NCBI GenBank assembly: GCA_001803205.1
Contig: MHBE01000040.1
Span: forward strand, 1-64,000
Reading direction: 5' to 3'
Length of the DNA: 64,000 bases
From: Lentisphaerae bacterium GWF2_38_69
GTDB taxonomy: Bacteria > Verrucomicrobiota > Lentisphaeria > Victivallales > GWF2-38-69
Shown: one piece after another, positions 44,914 through 63,488 of the stretch
How the letters are laid out: every line of letters begins with the position of its first letter
How positions within the stretch are numbered: position 1 is the stretch's first letter
Made by a program: the position numbers and the translations under genes
Notes under the pieces: generated by a model
Seen by the model: the letters and a program-made list of their open reading frames with translations, nothing else
Database searches by the model: none
Told to the model about the DNA's origin: nothing

Positions 44914-45108
44914 AGTTAAAAGAGCACTCTGCTCTTGCGATTGTTTTTTTCCCTTCATAGTAAGTTCCGTAACACAAAAACTCCAATATTATTGTCCTAC
45001 TAATTATTCTGCAGAATAAGCATTTTTAGTATTATTCCTGCTAACTACTTGACATTTCGACACATGCTATTTATAATTGCCGTTCTCAAATGTATTGGGG
45101 GTGATAGG

Positions 45109-47862
45109 ATGAAAGAATCGATCCATTCTAACGGAGAAACTTTTTGTGCTGCTGAGGAAATCAGAATACAAACTGTTTCAGATCTAAAGGCGGGCGATCA
45201 TCTCTGCCAAATATATCGAACCGAGAGAGAGCACAAAAATTTCATTAATGAATATTTAATTTCCGGCCTCCTGCAGAATGAAAAAGTCTTATACATTATC
45301 GACATCCACACAAAAGAGACTATTCTTGGTTATTTAAAAGAGAAAAATTTCGATCCGTCTCCATACCTAAGTTCCGGCCAACTTGCCTTTTTTACCCATA
45401 AGGAGTCTTATACAAAAGAGGGTGACTTTGATCCTGACAGAATGATAAAACTGCTTGACAGCGAAACAAATAAAGCAATTAATGAAGGATACCCTGCTCT
45501 GCGCGTGACAGGAGAAATGACCTGGTCACAAAAAGGAATAAAAGGTTCGGAAAAACTTCTGGAATATGAAGCTAAATTAAATAATTTTTTCCCGGACAGC
45601 AAAGCCCTTGCTATTTGCCAGTATGACAAAAGAAAGTTTCCTCCTGACATTTTAATGGGAGTACTGAACACTCATCCTATAGCAGTAATAGGCACCGAAA
45701 TAATAACAAATCCATTCTATATCCCCACTGCGTCATTTCTTAACAATGAAAGATCTCAAGCCACTCTGGACGGTTGGTTAACCAATCTCCTTGATGGCAA
45801 ACGATTACAGGATAAACTTCAAAAGTCAGCAGACGACTGGGAAAAAACTTTCGACTCTATATCTGATTTAATTTTTATACAAGATAATCATTTCAATATC
45901 ATCAAATCTAATAAATCTTTTGCCGATGCTCTGAAAATGAACCCTGAAGATCTCGTAGGGAAAAAATGTTATAATCTTCTGCATGGAGCTAATAAACCAT
46001 GGGAAAAATGTCCTTTCAAGGAAACCCTGAGAGACAGAAAAGCTCATACTGAAGAAGTTTTGGATCCGAATATCGGTGTTCCTCTTCTGGTTACCACATC
46101 ACCTTTTTTTGATAAAAACGGTAAACTAAAAGGTTCGGTGCATGTGGCAAAGGACATTACTGAAATAAAAGATGAACAGGATCGCTTCACCAAATTAAAC
46201 GCACTGCAGAGTTCTCTTGTTAATGGAGAATCACTTGATAAGAAATTAACTATCATTACTGATGCCGTAGTAGATATCTTCAAGGCTGATTTTGCCAGAA
46301 TCTGGTTAGTAGCTCCCGGAGACAGATGCTCCGGCTCCTGCCCTCACGCCTCAGTTACTTCAGGCCAGCATGTATGCCGCGCAAGAGATAAATGCCTTCA
46401 TATGAAGGCAAGTTCAGGCCGTTATACACATACAGACGAAGGTATTCATGCCAGAGTACCTTTCGGCTGCTATAAGATCGGAGGGATAGCATCAGGAGAA
46501 TATCCTTCATTTCTTACAAACGATGTTGTCAATGACCCTAGGATTCACAATCACGATTGGGCCAGAGAATTGGAACTGGTTTCTTTCGCAGGAGTGCAGC
46601 TGCATCATCCCAAATATAATACGATGGGAGTTCTGGCTCTCTTTTCCAAAAAATATTTTTCAGAAATAGAATATAAATTCCTCATAAATATCAGCAATGT
46701 AGTCGTGAGGGTCATATGCTCCACAATGGAACACGAAACTCTTAAGGAAAGTGAAAATAAGTACAAAACTCTTATTGAAACAATTCCACAGAAGATTTTC
46801 ATAAAAGACAAAAACTCTACCTTCATATCATGTAATAAAAAATATGCGACAGACCTGGGAATATCTCCTGAAGAAATAACAGGTAAAACCGACTTTCTAT
46901 TCTTTCCTAAAGACCTTGCAGACAAATACAGAGAAGACGATAAGATGATCATGGATTCAGGAAAAACAGTAGGATTTGAAGAAAAATACATTGAAAAAGG
47001 AAAAGATAAATGGATTTACACAGTCAAAACACCATTTAAAGACTCCATAGGCAATACAACTGGTGTACTTGGAGTTTTCTCAGATATCACTGACCTTAAA
47101 GAGAATCAGTGTAAAATACAGATTTTAGAAAGAAAACTTTATCAGTCTCAGAAAATGGAACAAATTGGCGCAATCGCCAGTAGCGTTTCTCATGATTTTA
47201 ATAATATTCTGGCCTCTATTTCCGGTTTTGCCGAGTTATTCCTGTGTGAACATAAAGAAAAAGATTCAAAGAGAAAATATGTCGAAGGAGTCCTGTCTGC
47301 AGCAAATAAAGGCAAAGAAATAGCAAAGAATATCCTTAGTTATTCAAAGCCTAAAGAAGATTCCTTCGAGCCGCTGGATATAGTTACTATTGTTGATGAT
47401 GCACTAAAAATTCTTGAAGCTTCCCTAAAACATATAGCAAAAATCACTGTAACTGTTATTCCTCGACAGCGCAGGCCGATACTGGGAGATTCTTCTCAGC
47501 TTATGCAAATGATGATAAACCTTATATTAAACGCAAGAGATGCCATGTCCGGGAAATGGGGCTATCTGGATATAATCATAGATGAAATATCTCTCATGAA
47601 AGACAGGCTTCCTCTCCCAGACATTACTCCGGGAAAATACATGAAAATGACAATTAGAGATACAGGACATGGCATGAGCAAAGAAGTCCAGGAACAGATA
47701 TTTAACTCTTTTTTTACGACTAAAGGAACTGAAGGAACGGGGCTTGGCCTTGAGATAGTCCATAGGGTAATCAAAAATCATAATGGCGCCATATCAGTCC
47801 AAAGCCAGCCTGACAAAGGCTCATCCTTTGATATTTTCATTCCTATTATTGCAGAAAAATAA
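45109..47862 (+). CDS. Hybrid-input histidine kinase (MEDS, PAS, GAF, PAS, HisKA, HATPase)
   Basis: A soluble 917-residue sensor kinase. Order: MEDS sensory domain (about 20-210: GDHLCQIYRTE, YPALRVTGEMTWS, ALAICQYDKRKFP), PAS (about 245-365), a GAF domain (about 370-545) with a Cys-rich insert (CSGSCPHASVTSGQHVCRA then KCLHMK), a second PAS (about 555-680), the H-box SVSHDFNNILASISG, N-box INLILNARDAM and G-boxes DTGHGMSK and GTGLGLEIV. MEDS proteins occur in methylotroph and methanogen regulation of one-carbon metabolism. I start at ATG 45109, preceded by GGGGGTGAT. The response regulator is at 48153, across a repeat element. Confidence 0.9.
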   Translation: MKESIHSNGETFCAAEEIRIQTVSDLKAGDHLCQIYRTEREHKNFINEYLISGLLQNEKVLYIIDIHTKETILGYLKEKNFDPSPYLSSGQLAFFTHKESYTKEGDFDPDRMIKLLDSETNKAINEGYPALRVTGEMTWSQKGIKGSEKLLEYEAKLNNFFPDSKALAICQYDKRKFPPDILMGVLNTHPIAVIGTEIITNPFYIPTASFLNNERSQATLDGWLTNLLDGKRLQDKLQKSADDWEKTFDSISDLIFIQDNHFNIIKSNKSFADALKMNPEDLVGKKCYNLLHGANKPWEKCPFKETLRDRKAHTEEVLDPNIGVPLLVTTSPFFDKNGKLKGSVHVAKDITEIKDEQDRFTKLNALQSSLVNGESLDKKLTIITDAVVDIFKADFARIWLVAPGDRCSGSCPHASVTSGQHVCRARDKCLHMKASSGRYTHTDEGIHARVPFGCYKIGGIASGEYPSFLTNDVVNDPRIHNHDWARELELVSFAGVQLHHPKYNTMGVLALFSKKYFSEIEYKFLINISNVVVRVICSTMEHETLKESENKYKTLIETIPQKIFIKDKNSTFISCNKKYATDLGISPEEITGKTDFLFFPKDLADKYREDDKMIMDSGKTVGFEEKYIEKGKDKWIYTVKTPFKDSIGNTTGVLGVFSDITDLKENQCKIQILERKLYQSQKMEQIGAIASSVSHDFNNILASISGFAELFLCEHKEKDSKRKYVEGVLSAANKGKEIAKNILSYSKPKEDSFEPLDIVTIVDDALKILEASLKHIAKITVTVIPRQRRPILGDSSQLMQMMINLILNARDAMSGKWGYLDIIIDEISLMKDRLPLPDITPGKYMKMTIRDTGHGMSKEVQEQIFNSFFTTKGTEGTGLGLEIVHRVIKNHNGAISVQSQPDKGSSFDIFIPIIAEK

Positions 47863-47955
47863 TTTTCCGATATGATATAACCATATATTTTATAGTCTTG
47901 ATTGATATATCCCATTAACGAAATGATTTTCGAATTTTACATAGCTTTATTAGGC

Positions 47956-48085
47956 AGGGTCAGATCCACGCAGAGAAAGCGTGGCCAAGCTCCGAAGTTT
48001 ATAACGCAGAAGCGTTACTGACCGTAATAAGCGGACGCCTCGGAGCCTGCCCGTTGATGACGGAGTCGGCCAGGGATGCGTCCCT
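47956..48085. repeat. Structured dispersed repeat, copy A
   Basis: Termini AGGGTCAGATCC (47956-47967, degenerate) and GGATGCGTCCCT (48074-48085) form an inverted pair. The core hairpin TAACGC-AGAA-GCGTTA is at 48002-48017, and AAGCTCCGA pairs with TCGGAGCCT. Related copies are B, C and D. It lies between the histidine kinase and response regulator genes. Confidence 0.8.
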
Positions 48086-48152
48086 ACCTGGAAGTTCGAA
48101 AAACAAAACGGAACTGGTATATATTGTTAAACAAACCTCATGGAGTCTGGAA

Positions 48153-48527
48153 ATGAGCAGAATATTATTAGTAGATGATGATGACAACTTCAGAAAGATA
48201 GTGAAAATAAAACTTGAACAATCAGGTTATGAGGTGCTTGAAGCTCAAAACACACCATCTGCTCTGGATATCACCGGAAAACATTTCATCAACTTGGTAA
48301 TAACAGATTTGTATATGCCTGAAATTGACGGAATCCAATCCATAATATTGTTCAAAAAGCAATTTCCCGGCCTGAGAATAATAGCTATGACAGGAGCCTG
48401 TTCAGAAGGCCGAACCGATTGCCTTTTAAACCTTGCCATGGAAAAAGGCGCCATCGATTCCTTCAAGAAAATTGATAGTCTGGATCTGCTTTTAAATAAA
48501 ATAAAATCAGCATTGGCTTCAAATTAA
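48153..48527 (+). CDS. Response regulator receiver protein
   Basis: A 124-residue stand-alone receiver domain. Acidic pocket LLVDDDDN at the start, phospho-acceptor Asp in LVITDLYMPEIDGIQS, the Thr of IAMTGACSEG and the Lys in FKKIDSLD. There is no output domain, so it may relay phosphate or bind a target. I start at ATG 48153, with GGAG at 48142-48145. A longer frame begins at 48054 inside repeat copy A and is not credible. Its likely kinase is the gene at 45109. Confidence 0.9.
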   Translation: MSRILLVDDDDNFRKIVKIKLEQSGYEVLEAQNTPSALDITGKHFINLVITDLYMPEIDGIQSIILFKKQFPGLRIIAMTGACSEGRTDCLLNLAMEKGAIDSFKKIDSLDLLLNKIKSALASN

Positions 48528-48788: not shown

Positions 48789-50375
48789 TCAATAATCTGT
48801 AATGGAATCAAGGAGTTCAACTTCCTGGTTTTTCTCTCTAAAAGTCTCAAGCCGCCATTTATTTTCAAAAAAAAGTACTTGCCTTTTTAAATAATCAGTC
48901 CCTGATACACCGCTGTAGATAAGCTTCTTTTTCAGTATTTCAGATTCAACAGGATTTTCGAGCCACCTCATAAGTGTCCATGGCATTATTTCCAGGGTTG
49001 TTTCAACTGCATATTCATCCCGAAGTCGGTACTGGAGAACCTCGAACTGCAGCAGTCCGAGTGCGCCAAGGAGCGGAACGCTTTTGAAATTGTTATCCAG
49101 CTGGAAAGTCTGCACTATGTCTTCTGCTATCAGATGCTCGAGCCCTTTCCGGAAAGCTTTGTATTTTGAAGTGCTGCTGTTATTTATATAGGCAAACATC
49201 TCAGGGGCAAAGCGAGGGATTTTCTCAAAAATAATATTAATATCAGAGCTAATGGTGTCGCCTATCTTAAAGTCCGCGTTAGTAATAAAGCCTATGACAT
49301 CTCCAGGATAGGCCTCGTCAGCAGTTTTTCTTTCTTTGCCGAAAACACTGTGCGAACTTGAGAGGCGTATTTCTTTTTTATTCCTGGAGTTAAAGACCTT
49401 TGTATCCCTTTCGAACTTGCCGGAACAGACTCTGGCAAAAACCATTCTGTCCCTGTGCATAGGATCCATATTAGTCTGGATTTTAAAAACAAAAGCCGAG
49501 AAGAATGGAGCATTTAAAGGAAGCAATTGACCAGTATTAGTTCTTCTGGGGGTCGGGGGGCTTGAGTGTTCCAAAAAACCTTTAAGCAGAAGTTCTACTC
49601 CAAAATTGTTGGCGGCGCTGCCGAAATAAACAGGAGAGAGTTCTCCCTGCAGAATTTTGTCACGGTCAAATTCAAGCTGCAGTTCTTCCAGCAAATCTAC
49701 TTCTTCGATAAAGTTATTATAGGCTTCTTCATGCATCATTTTTTTAATTTCATTGTCGTCTATTGAGTGCACGCTAAATGGCGCTCGGTAAGTGCCTCCT
49801 GAAGTTCTCTCAAAAAGATGAACTTCTTTTACCATCCTGTCATAAACCCCCTTAAAGTAATATCCATTCTCTATGGGCCAGTTAACAGGATAGGTCTTTA
49901 GTCCTAGGATTTGCTCTACCTCATCAATGAGAGTCAATGGCATTTTTGTCGGCCGGTCAAATTTGTTAATAAATGTAAAAACTGGAATTTTGTGTTTCTT
50001 GCAGACCTCATAAAGTTTGAGAGTTTGGTTTTCTATGCCTTTAGCTCCGTCTATAATCATTATGGCTCCGTCAACCGCGGTCAATACACGATAAGTGTCT
50101 TCGGAGAAGTCCTTGTGACCCGGGGTATCAAGGAGATTAAATCTATAGTTTTTATATTCAAATTGAAGAACTGTGGAAGAAATCGATATTCCTCTCTTTT
50201 TTTCAAGTTCCATCCAATCTGACGCTGTATCTCTTTGTTTTTTCTTGGCAGTAACTGAACCTGCTAGATCTAAAGCGCCACCGTAAAGCAGGAGTTTTTC
50301 GGTCAGAGTAGTTTTTCCTGCATCCGGGTGCGATATTATAGCAAGCGTACGCCTGCGCAATATTTCACTGTTCAT
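48789..50375 (-). CDS. prfC: Peptide chain release factor 3
   Basis: A translational GTPase of 528 residues that recycles RF1/RF2. G motifs are ISHPDAGKTTLTEKLL (P-loop), DTPGHKDFSEDTYRVL, TFINKFDRPTK and the RF3-specific KKQRDTASDWMELEKKRGIS. The length is as expected. It stands alone between repeat copy B and the hexokinase gene. Confidence 0.97.
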   Translation of the reverse strand: MNSEILRRRTLAIISHPDAGKTTLTEKLLLYGGALDLAGSVTAKKKQRDTASDWMELEKKRGISISSTVLQFEYKNYRFNLLDTPGHKDFSEDTYRVLTAVDGAIMIIDGAKGIENQTLKLYEVCKKHKIPVFTFINKFDRPTKMPLTLIDEVEQILGLKTYPVNWPIENGYYFKGVYDRMVKEVHLFERTSGGTYRAPFSVHSIDDNEIKKMMHEEAYNNFIEEVDLLEELQLEFDRDKILQGELSPVYFGSAANNFGVELLLKGFLEHSSPPTPRRTNTGQLLPLNAPFFSAFVFKIQTNMDPMHRDRMVFARVCSGKFERDTKVFNSRNKKEIRLSSSHSVFGKERKTADEAYPGDVIGFITNADFKIGDTISSDINIIFEKIPRFAPEMFAYINNSSTSKYKAFRKGLEHLIAEDIVQTFQLDNNFKSVPLLGALGLLQFEVLQYRLRDEYAVETTLEIMPWTLMRWLENPVESEILKKKLIYSGVSGTDYLKRQVLFFENKWRLETFREKNQEVELLDSITDY

Positions 50376-50597: not shown

Positions 50598-52055
50598 TCA
50601 GCCTTCTTCTGAGGCTACAACTGCAGCAATAATTGCCGCCCCTATCCCTGAACCATCTTTTGCATAATCACAAACAATGTTTTTAGATTTATCTCCAAAG
50701 AGTTCATTAAAGACACTTTCCATAATACCTTTGTAATCCGGATATCTTTCATAAACAGCACCATCAATACCAACAATGTGTTTTCTTTCAAGCTCAGGAT
50801 CCATCCATAATATTACCGCAGATACTGCCGCAGCAGAGAGTCTGGCTGACCTTCTGGCGATAAGGCTGCTTATATATTTAAAAAGAATCCTGGATTGCAA
50901 ATCGCTCTTTTTTAATCCCTGTTCCGACAGAAAAACCTCTATCGCGCCTAAATTACTACTCTTATCATTTGCCGCAAGAGACATAAATTCAGATTTAAGG
51001 CTCCATTGTTTGTCAAAAAGATTCACCGCGTTTTCATCCTTGAAAATTATATCCCTTTTTATCAGGTCTCTAAGCACCAGTCTGAATATCTCTCCGAGAT
51101 ACATGCCTGAAATCATTTTCTCAAATTTGTGCTCTTTTGGGTTAATAGTTCCAGCATCCATTTCCCTGTCATAATAAGTAACTGAAATTTTATCGAAATC
51201 ACCCCATTCCATGTTTATTATCATGTTCGAGCTCTTTGGCGCTAATCCTTTCCATTTCTTTATGTTGTTTATTTTTTCACGGTAACATGCATTGGTGCCT
51301 GTTCCTAATATCACACCCAAATCGCATGCTTGCTCTTCATAGCTCTTGGCCACAAGGGTTCCTACTGTATCATTGACAAGAGCCGCAACTTTGATATTTT
51401 TAATCCCTTTCCTCCTGAGAGCCTCATTCAGAAGGGCAACAACATCCTTTCCTTCTACACCTGAAGCTTCAAACCCCTTTGACCATGAGATAAGCTTTCC
51501 CGAATCAATGCTTGTCTGATCGACTGCGAAAGAAAAAGTAAAAGCCAGGTCAACTTTTTTCTCATAGGAAATATTGTTGCTTTTCATAAAGTTATCGATA
51601 CATTCGGCAATATAATTAAAAAGTTCCTCTCCTGTGCCTTCCATATATTTCTTTTCAATCACATATCTGTTAACTCCTGAAATTTCTATACCTTTGGCTC
51701 CGTCAAGATCTACAGCAAGAACTCTCAGGTTTGTCCCGCCCAAATCAAGAGCTATGAATTTTCCAGTCTCTTTTCCTATGGCCACATCAGTAAATGAAGG
51801 AATCATCTGCAGAGAACTTTCTTGCCCTGATAAACCCTTCCTCATTTCAGAATGGAAATTCGCAATAATCTCTCTTATATCGTCGGGAGTTACTGCAAAA
51901 TTTTTTTCAATGTACCTTATAAAATCTTCATCCGCAGTACTGCTTCTCGAAGAATATAAATCGTAATTGCTGCCCCTGGGCTCCACTTGAGAATTATTTG
52001 CCAACAGATCAGCCGAGAGCAGAAACAATAGAAGAAGTATCAATATTTTTTTCAT
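50598..52055 (-). CDS. Eukaryotic-type hexokinase with an N-terminal signal peptide
   Basis: A 485-residue hexokinase of the two-part eukaryotic family (PF00349/PF03727), different from bacterial ROK glucokinases. Motifs are FIALDLGGTNLRVLAVDL (phosphate 1), FTFSFAVDQ and GKLISWSKGF (sugar site; the usual Pro after FSF is Ala), VNDTVGTLVA with the catalytic Asp, VILGTGTNACYRE and MEWGDF. All catalytic parts are there. The first 20 residues (MKKILILLLLFLLSADLLA) form a classical Sec signal, which is unexpected for an ATP-using kinase. Either it is exported or membrane-anchored, or the first codons are misassigned. No in-frame Met offers a better start before the core. Confidence 0.9.
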   Translation of the reverse strand: MKKILILLLLFLLSADLLANNSQVEPRGSNYDLYSSRSSTADEDFIRYIEKNFAVTPDDIREIIANFHSEMRKGLSGQESSLQMIPSFTDVAIGKETGKFIALDLGGTNLRVLAVDLDGAKGIEISGVNRYVIEKKYMEGTGEELFNYIAECIDNFMKSNNISYEKKVDLAFTFSFAVDQTSIDSGKLISWSKGFEASGVEGKDVVALLNEALRRKGIKNIKVAALVNDTVGTLVAKSYEEQACDLGVILGTGTNACYREKINNIKKWKGLAPKSSNMIINMEWGDFDKISVTYYDREMDAGTINPKEHKFEKMISGMYLGEIFRLVLRDLIKRDIIFKDENAVNLFDKQWSLKSEFMSLAANDKSSNLGAIEVFLSEQGLKKSDLQSRILFKYISSLIARRSARLSAAAVSAVILWMDPELERKHIVGIDGAVYERYPDYKGIMESVFNELFGDKSKNIVCDYAKDGSGIGAAIIAAVVASEEG

Positions 52056-52185
52056 TTTTATCCCATTATTCCATGCAATTAGAAGCTAAATTCTGATTTC
52101 CATATTGCTGATTTTAGCTAGCTAGCTCCATTAAGTCAATTTGCTTCTTAATAATCTAACAGTTAAAAGGTAACTCCTGAGAAAA

Positions 52186-53281: not shown

Positions 53282-54490
53282 TCAAAAATTTTTAGAGTGC
53301 TCAGCTATTCTTCTCTTTGCAATATAGAAAGCTCCCAACCCTATAAAAGAAAAGAACAGTGATATCAGAATAAGCCCTACCAATGGTTCCTTATGAAAAA
53401 GAGTAACAAGAAAAACCCCCAAACTCATAGCCACATAGTTAATACTCATAGCCATTCCTAACGCCAATCCTCCTCTCCTCTTGAAATAATTAATTGTAAT
53501 CACCTGAGTTGTAGGATTGGTAAGGGCGTTTGCCGCACGCATAAATATTGACCCCAGAGTAACAAGAATGATAATTACGATGGTAATTGGAAAAAAATCA
53601 GAAGTACAGATAACCAAAGCGCCTACAAGAGTAAAAGTCACTCCTATTGATATTATTTTATTATAGGAAGCCTTGGCTCTGTTCAAAGCAAGCATGTACT
53701 GATTGCCGAGCAGATAGGCTACAGACATAAGAATGTAGATGTAAGAATAGGTTATCGGATGCACTCCCAAATGGTCTATATACAAATAACTCGATATGCC
53801 GATAAAAGCCCAGAAAGCACCTGAAGCGCTTGCGTAAATCGCAGTAATCATAAGAAAAAAGCGATCCTTAAAAATATGGAAATAATTCATCACATAAAGG
53901 TTTAATTTCGGCAGGGATTTAAGTTTCTTGTAATTCGTTTCAGGAAGTATTTTCAAAGTAAGAATCAGAATCAGCATCCCAAGGATTCCATTAAATACAA
54001 AACAGCTCCTCCAGCCGAAATGATGAGTAAGGTAAGCTCCTATTACTGGAGCTATAGCAGGAGATATGATTAATCCTGCAAGGATTATCCCATTTGCCCT
54101 CACCTGCTCTCTCTGGTTCATAATATCCTTAAGAACCTGTCTGGTACAAATGAAGAGAAATCCCACAAGAGACTGTATAAAACGAAGGATTACTATTACC
54201 CATATTGAAGGAGATAAGCTTATCAGAAAAGAAGTAACTATATATACGCAAAGAGAAATAATAATTATGGGTTTTCTACCAAACCTGTTACTCAGCACAT
54301 CGGCAAAAACCACAAAAATTGCTACACCTATTGTATAAATAGAGATAGTCAGATTTATAACATTTGGGGTAGTATTGAAATCGCTGACCATCCGAGGCAA
54401 AGCTGAAATATATATATCCGTACCGGCCATACCCATGAAAAACATGGAAGCCATAAGCAGGAGAATGTAGTTTTTATTAAGCTTCTTCAT
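53282..54490 (-). CDS. Bcr/CflA-type MFS drug transporter
   Basis: A 402-residue, 12-helix efflux protein. Family features are GTDIYISALPRMVSDFN at the start, DVLSNRFGRKPIIIIS (loop 2-3), ILRFIQSLVGFLF and AGLIISPAIAPVIGAYLTHHFGWR. Substrates of the family include bicyclomycin and other drugs; the real one is unknown. A decayed paralogue is at 62825-63488. It is followed by dinB. Confidence 0.9.
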   Translation of the reverse strand: MKKLNKNYILLLMASMFFMGMAGTDIYISALPRMVSDFNTTPNVINLTISIYTIGVAIFVVFADVLSNRFGRKPIIIISLCVYIVTSFLISLSPSIWVIVILRFIQSLVGFLFICTRQVLKDIMNQREQVRANGIILAGLIISPAIAPVIGAYLTHHFGWRSCFVFNGILGMLILILTLKILPETNYKKLKSLPKLNLYVMNYFHIFKDRFFLMITAIYASASGAFWAFIGISSYLYIDHLGVHPITYSYIYILMSVAYLLGNQYMLALNRAKASYNKIISIGVTFTLVGALVICTSDFFPITIVIIILVTLGSIFMRAANALTNPTTQVITINYFKRRGGLALGMAMSINYVAMSLGVFLVTLFHKEPLVGLILISLFFSFIGLGAFYIAKRRIAEHSKNF

Positions 54491-55355: not shown

Positions 55356-55652
55356 ATGAGAGAATTTATACCTCCGTTTAAACAGCTTATCGCATTTGAA
55401 GCAGTAGCGAGATTAAAAAGTTTCTCTAAATCTGCTGAGGAACTGAATATTACCCACTCAGCTGTAAGTCAAAACATCAATTCTCTGGAAAAGCTTTTAG
55501 GGAAGAGCCTCATAAAAAGGAATACCCATAAAGTTGAGCTCACTTCTATTGGAGAACTCTATTATAATGAAATATCGAAAAACTTTTCATTCCGACAAGG
55601 AAGTAAACTCGACAAAATAGCCACCTCTGAAAAACTCAGGTTCAGTCCGTGA
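55356..55652 (+). pseudogene. LysR-type regulator, truncated after the DNA-binding domain
   Basis: Contains an intact N-terminal winged HTH (LIAFEAVARLKSFSKSAEEL, ITHSAVSQNINSLEKLLG, KSLIKRNTHKVELTSIGELYY) but only 98 residues, where the family has about 290-300. The effector domain is gone. It begins between two convergent promoters and overlaps the end of the nudix gene by 11 bases. Without the effector domain it can only bind DNA, if made at all. Confidence 0.75.
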
Positions 55653-62824: not shown

Positions 62825-63488
62825 GTGAATGTCATAAATCTGACTTTGTCTTCTTATGCTCTGGGCACAGCTGTATTTGTCCTTTTTGCCGATATGCTTA
62901 CAGCCAGATATGGGAGGAGGCCTATTATTCTTTTCTCACTCATCATTTTTACGCTTTCCGCCCTTCTTATAAGCGTCTCTCCCTGGATATGGGGTGATAA
63001 TATTTCTCAGAATAATGCAGTCTGTAGGACTAGGACTCTATATTATGGGAAGCAGTATGGTTATCAAAAACATAATGACCGAGAGAGAACAAATAAGGGC
63101 AACAGGTTTGATTTTAAGCGGCCTTGTCCTCTCTCCTGCCATATCACCTGTTATAGGAGCGGCCTTTATACTTCTGGCTCTGCTTTGTTCGTCTTCGCTT
63201 CTTATAGCCGGGATGATAACTTTCGGAGCAATTCTTATGAGAGGGGCCAACGCTCTGGTCAATACTACGACACAGGTAATTACAATTAACCGCTTTAAAA
63301 ACAGGGGCGGAGTGGCTCTCGGGATGGCAATCAGCGCCGGGATTGAAGTTCAGGGAATAAGCGTTATCCTGGTAACTCTTTTTCACAGCAAACCGCTTGA
63401 AGGACTAGTTATAATATCCATAGTTCTTTCAGCTATCGGAATAATTACATTTCATCTGATAAGAGAAAATCTGAATTATAAAGCTTAA
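62825..63488 (+). pseudogene. Decayed Bcr/CflA-type MFS transporter
   Basis: Homology to the intact gene at 53282-54490 starts at NVINLTLSSYALGTAVFVLF; the first helix is lost. After SVSPWIWG a one-base loss at about 62994 moves the rest (VIIFLRIMQSVGLGLYIMG, then ISPVIGAA) to another frame. From there it jumps to LLIAGMITFGAILMRGAN and RFKNRGGVALGMAIS, so about 160 residues (helices 5 to 9) are missing. The end is normal, so the copy was once complete. Confidence 0.88.

Follow-up and report, generated by a model that had tools for sequence, protein, structure and literature searches.

The 64,000-nucleotide stretch analysed here (the window; positions 1 to 64,000 of contig MHBE01000040.1 from Lentisphaerae bacterium GWF2_38_69, genome G000) carries, between prfC and dinB, a hexokinase gene whose product begins like a secreted protein (Table 1). 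A hexokinase open reading frame behind a Sec-type N-terminus had been reported at 50598–52055 in the first-pass annotation, and this was confirmed, the frame being present there with both hexokinase domains and the hexokinase fold. Both Pfam domains match at full length and above cut-off (230.3 bits for Hexokinase_1 and 246.4 bits for Hexokinase_2), and an AlphaFold2 model built with 12 relatives (mean pLDDT 87) superposes on solved yeast, plant and human hexokinases with TM values of 0.81–0.86. Eukaryotic hexokinases are the best solved relatives of the protein, and the fold matches include the S177A mutant of Arabidopsis HXK1 (4qs9). Judged by its sequence, the protein is certainly homologous to the hexokinase family, with a glucose site that does not appear fully intact. 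Residues 2–22 of the model form a low-confidence helix and the enzyme begins near residue 40, beyond a stretch of very low confidence (residues 16–38), an outline consistent with the shape expected for a signal peptide, a linker and a domain. The adjoining prfC gene, encoding RF3, occupies 48789–50375 in G000, and no clear orthologue of it was found in two other genomes of the family (G001 and G002), in which the only matches are short segments of distant translation GTPases, at 37% identity or less.

Table 1. Features of the window hexokinase gene and of the sensor kinase gene in the sister genus (window positions unless a locus is named; minus, reverse strand).
Feature	Position	Strand	Basis
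Predicted exported hexokinase paralogue, whole gene (L001)	50598..52055	-	ATG to stop, 485 aa
GGGA, ribosome-binding-like site shortly 5' of ATG	52061..52064	-	sequence
Putative Sec-type signal peptide, residues 1-19 (MKKILILLLLFLLSADLLA)	51999..52055	-	sequence; alternative cleavage after A15
Disordered linker, residues 20-39, signal peptide to enzyme	51939..51998	-	pLDDT below 50 at residues 16-38
Hexokinase_1 domain (PF00349), residues 47-239	51339..51917	-	Pfam match
Ala177 for Pro of FSFP (human HK1 P605)	51525..51527	-	alignment
Ser192 for glucose-site Thr of WTK (human HK1 T620)	51480..51482	-	alignment
Asp229, catalytic base (human HK1 D657), kept	51369..51371	-	alignment
Hexokinase_2 domain (PF03727), residues 246-479	50619..51320	-	Pfam match
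Hybrid sensor kinase, 1282 aa, directly downstream of L003	L034:6449-10297		signal peptide, then Reg_prop-Y_Y_Y-HisKA-HATPase_c by Pfam

Elsewhere in the window, a MEDS-PAS-histidine kinase with a MEDS sensory domain of the DcmR type is followed by a stand-alone response regulator (45049–48527). A 98-aa frame at 55356–55652, divergent from an isochorismatase-family gene, corresponds by eye to no more than the N-terminal portion of a LysR-type regulator and is probably a truncated regulator. At 62825–63488 two overlapping frames lie in different registers, the first of which appears by eye to encode the beginning of an MFS transporter, resembles the intact MFS gene at 53282–54490, and is perhaps a frameshifted paralogue.

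The hexokinase N-terminus, MKKILILLLLFLLSADLLA followed by NNS, looks like an ordinary Sec signal peptide. Read as MKK-ILILLLLFLLSADLLA/NNS, it displays the basic n-region, short h-region and small −1 residue of Sec and signal peptidase I substrates, specifically an MKK n-region, an h-region of 10–12 residues, and cleavage sites ending in Ala (LSA/D or LLA/N), while twin Arg and a lipobox Cys are both absent from this N-terminus. Signal peptides were called here by eye together with Kyte–Doolittle hydrophobicity. The nine leucines of the hydrophobic stretch are spread over five different codons, so that the hydrophobicity belongs to the protein and not to a simple or low-complexity DNA repeat, and in shuffled DNA such a hydrophobic N-terminus in an open frame follows just 7 of 22,570 ATGs (0.03%). 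The earlier statement that no alternative start is obvious requires some qualification, since a TTG (codon 18) and a GTG (codon 24) are in frame, but neither comes with a convincing ribosome-binding site, making a short cytosolic form unlikely, although not impossible.

Related hexokinase loci were found by an alignment-based scan of genome contigs, a single-sequence scan having given no match, and the phylum sample, Verrucomicrobiota, includes a contig of Opitutaceae bacterium EW11 (G200, L074) as well as G002, a Victivallales bacterium. The phylum thus takes in Opitutaceae and Victivallales records, bearing out the PVC affiliation suggested at first pass. Many genomes of PVC bacteria, deltaproteobacteria and Negativicutes encode Hexokinase_1, which is absent from all 14 named control genomes. 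G000, a 3.1 Mb draft that is 95% complete, holds a second hexokinase (L002), 63% identical to the window copy, which starts with the cytosolic-type sequence MSTKTKTTTAYDEF and has an in-frame stop just upstream; with a cytosolic enzyme in the same genome, the window gene represents an extra, putatively exported paralogue. In an N-terminus survey of 67 related loci whose start could be read (including a few genes represented in two collections), a strongly hydrophobic start was encountered only in the window gene and in L003 (the same gene as L034), from the sister-genus genome G001 of the same family. The best ten-residue Kyte–Doolittle value is 3.84 for the window gene, the highest of the 67 loci, and 3.16 for L003, against no more than 2.34 for the others over all possible starts. 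Among the loci surveyed, tagged copies thus come from only two genomes, G000 and G001, both draft assemblies. G001 also keeps an untagged copy, split over two contigs (L006 and L007) whose ends share 53 identical residues, and a single untagged hexokinase is present in G002, the third family genome. The untagged copies L002 and L007 are both adjoined by tadA (identified by eye), and hence probably mark the ancestral locus; the tagged genes are located elsewhere, the window gene between prfC and dinB and L003 between deoC and a sensor kinase gene. A tadA gene, again by eye, is also found near L005, a very distant hexokinase (about 32–34% identity) from another family of the same order.

This distribution bears on how the window N-terminus is to be understood. 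Orthologues lacking the hydrophobic segment had been named at first pass as an argument against a genuine signal peptide, and nearly all relatives do, literally, lack it, but the pattern indicates duplication and retargeting instead of a wrong start. A cytosolic protein initiated at the in-frame TTG or GTG, with the upstream hydrophobic codons used rarely or never, would, if begun at codon 24, extend just a little beyond L002 at its N-terminus. We nevertheless consider it very improbable, given that the ribosome-binding site precedes the ATG, that a hydrophobic stretch encoded by such diverse codons is rare by chance, and that G001 harbours a second tagged copy, in which the ATG overlaps the upstream stop codon.

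The two tagged copies appear to have separate origins. In the main tree, computed for 23 proteins with tags removed, L003 has as its sister L006 from the same genome (support 100/96; 77% identity), and not the window copy. Placing the tagged copies in one clade was rejected in this tree (AU p = 4.3e-5) and again in a smaller set under two models (p = 2.3e-4 and 2.5e-3), whereas a grouping of the window copy and L002, the cytosolic hexokinase of that genome, was not rejected (p = 0.35–0.39), so that the window duplication may have occurred within its own genus or slightly earlier. In the simplest history the gene would have been duplicated on two separate occasions, with a signal peptide gained after each, and independent acquisition of the tag is likely on the strength of these phylogenies. 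With a cytosolic and a separately made, apparently exported copy in each of two genera, an annotation error is hard to invoke. Gene conversion making L003 resemble L006 was considered and rejected, as L003 is more similar to L006 than to L001 in each full block of 40 columns and no L001-like tract is seen. Within the 23-protein tree, which is without microsporidian sequences, the nearest relatives are bacterial. Hexokinases of the family group there with sequences from deltaproteobacteria and other anaerobes; the G002 copy sits among those sequences and not with its own family, making transfer between phyla possible.

For one of the two copies, the source of the tag can be suggested. The hybrid sensor kinase encoded directly downstream of L003, whose C-terminal end is receiver-like by eye, begins with MKSRNATLFLLLLLKISLIASMFSDDLKFQ, and L003 itself begins with MKSRFVALGLILIFNLSFIASAFTYDIKTQ. 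DNA around the two starts aligns at a score of 70 (background maximum 45), and from the ATG onwards at 46 (background maximum 28), the background being 210 pairs of hydrophobic-N-terminus genes from the window, and thus G000 and not G001 DNA, which limits the comparison; none of 1000 codon shuffles reached the observed score. The similarity extends to the onset of hexokinase homology (PGYEEF). Homologous 5' ends of this kind suggest that a copy of the sensor gene's 5' end was placed ahead of the G001 hexokinase, so that one of the two tag gains probably occurred by local capture from a neighbouring gene. Since the propeller sensor must be exported, its tag is a working one. In the case of the window copy, a search of G000 yielded no donor for its signal peptide (best E 0.045), and no propeller-type sensor kinase adjoins it. 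Other tagged genes of the window were examined as donors and dismissed, their similarities being weak and largely located in AT-rich upstream DNA. Genes for deoC and a HAD phosphatase also lie upstream of the sensor kinase at the G001 locus.

Export of the window protein is accordingly assessed from its N-terminus, by which it is very likely secreted, and the mature protein would be cleaved and work in the periplasm or at the cell surface. Three explanations had been offered at first pass, namely a membrane-anchored cytosolic enzyme, a periplasmic sugar-binding or moonlighting role, and a compartmented cell plan, of which the second fits best and the other two are disfavoured. Anchored hexokinases exist in eukaryotes, and a hexokinase facing the cytoplasm in the manner of the outer-membrane-anchored mitochondrial and plant enzymes would be compatible with the modelled N-terminal hydrophobic helix and the flexible linker behind it. 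Such an arrangement is most improbable here, however, since positive charges (MKK) precede the segment and no dominating charge follows it, favouring an N-in/C-out orientation in which the enzyme faces outwards. Moreover, a short hydrophobic core leads into sites resembling those of signal peptidase, and the G001 tag shares homology with the tag of a protein whose sensor part is exported. As for a compartmented plan with exported glycolysis, phosphoglucose isomerase (PGI), the only further glycolytic step checked, is single and untagged in both G000 and G001, and in this respect the two genomes give no sign of it. A single untagged PGI, together with the four ROK-family proteins also present in G000, implies that ordinary glycolysis does not depend on a second, exported hexokinase.

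The rate of evolution of each exported copy is roughly double that of its cytosolic partner. Unique changes number 59:32 for the window copy against its untagged partner (p = 0.006) and 53:24 for L003 against its own (p = 0.001); no rate difference is seen when the untagged copies are compared with each other (28:24). Constraint nevertheless continues, as judged by a dN of 0.14 and a dS of 0.81 between L003 and L006. The claim that all hexokinase motifs are intact holds for the catalytic Asp and for the phosphate and nucleotide motifs of the window copy (NDTVGT, LDLGGTN, GTGTNACY and DGSG), but not for the FSFP...WTK motif, which L002 retains; the window copy has FSFA...WSK in its place, and L003 has FSFP...WVK. 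All 26 untagged relatives in the motif table, and L003 as well, have the Pro of FSFP. The Thr is not strictly conserved, as untagged L043 has Asn at this site, and its replacement by Ser is a mild change. The corresponding P605 and T620 of human HK1 are small-domain residues touching glucose, and the substitutions hint, though not strongly in statistical terms, at altered sugar binding. Among 66 near-invariant columns the two exported copies deviate in 3 and 2, respectively, with a chance of about 9% of one common column. Parallel amino-acid changes in the two copies (23 common sites against 15.6 expected) were also considered and found unconvincing, because sites differ in rate. A spare duplicate in decay might likewise evolve faster and change at conserved positions, its signal peptide then being a passing accident without function. 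This is improbable, however, for a complete reading frame with 63% identity to its paralogue and its catalytic residues kept, particularly as dN/dS is well below 1 in the G001 pair and the same change of address has taken place in two genera.

Our overall explanation, to which we assign a probability of roughly 0.6, is that of a duplicated and retargeted hexokinase, most likely serving as a sugar binder or sensor in the envelope and not as a bulk kinase. According to this proposal a housekeeping cytosolic hexokinase was duplicated, the second copy acquired a new Sec signal peptide and left the cytoplasm, and the exported protein would close around its ligand, glucose or a similar sugar, and then signal or hand the sugar over. 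For the G001 protein the candidate partner would be the adjacent hybrid histidine kinase with its exported beta-propeller. ATP is scarce outside the cytoplasm, the other checked glycolytic step is not exported, and the glucose-contacting Thr is changed in both exported copies, and on these grounds mainly non-catalytic sugar binding or sensing appears the likeliest role, although we propose it tentatively. Retention of the catalytic Asp and the ATP-loop motifs counts against it, since a pure binder would not need them. The same conserved elements (Asp229, GGTN, GTGTNACY and DGSG) and the continued purifying selection in the G001 pair could instead speak for an enzyme still phosphorylating sugar outside the cytoplasm with released ATP or another donor, for instance to trap, modify or detoxify an envelope sugar. 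Secreted microsporidian hexokinases likewise keep their catalytic residues (PMC6460350). Altered glucose-contact residues, the absence of an export tag on PGI, the next glycolytic step, and the shortage of periplasmic ATP all weigh against phosphorylation, which we consider unlikely.

Hexokinase is a textbook cytosolic ATP enzyme, and exported copies made separately in two genera would constitute repeated evolution. Their occurrence suggests that an extracytoplasmic hexokinase is useful to these bacteria, probably in binding or sensing sugar. The G001 case provides evidence for how a cytosolic enzyme can gain an export tag, namely by copying of a neighbouring gene's start, and with the system as a whole one could ask if the fold of a metabolic kinase can be turned into a sugar receptor of the envelope. 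A broader possibility, doubtful at this stage, is that this PVC family has repeatedly recruited hexokinases as extracytoplasmic sugar receptors, by duplication and in one instance by capture of a neighbour's signal peptide, to feed a transmembrane sensor kinase.

Compared with the hexokinase family at large (yeast HXK, human HK1-4, plant HXK), the window protein has both domains at full length and keeps the catalytic Asp and nucleotide motifs, but it is bacterial, carries a Sec signal peptide, and is substituted at P605A and T620S (HK1 numbering). In Arabidopsis HXK1 the hexokinase fold senses glucose separably from catalysis; unlike the window protein, for which sensing is a proposal, HXK1 has no bacterial Sec export and is catalytically active as the wild type. 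Bacteroides hybrid two-component systems (Reg_prop/Y_Y_Y) share with the G001 neighbour the same order of propeller, Y_Y_Y and histidine kinase, but the window copy has no such gene beside it, and the literature searched describes no exported hexokinase as a partner of these systems. To our knowledge, secreted hexokinases have been described only in eukaryotic parasites, and our literature search returned no paper on a bacterial periplasmic hexokinase or glucokinase, which does not prove absence. Secreted hexokinases are known from Microsporidia, such as Trachipleistophora hominis HK2/HK3 (PMC6460350) and Nosema bombycis (PMC6152459). These eukaryotic intracellular parasites export via the ER, whereas the window comes from a Sec-using bacterium without a known host, but in both cases members of a cytosolic family have been given signal peptides while an untagged copy is kept, T. 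hominis having four hexokinases of which three are tagged.
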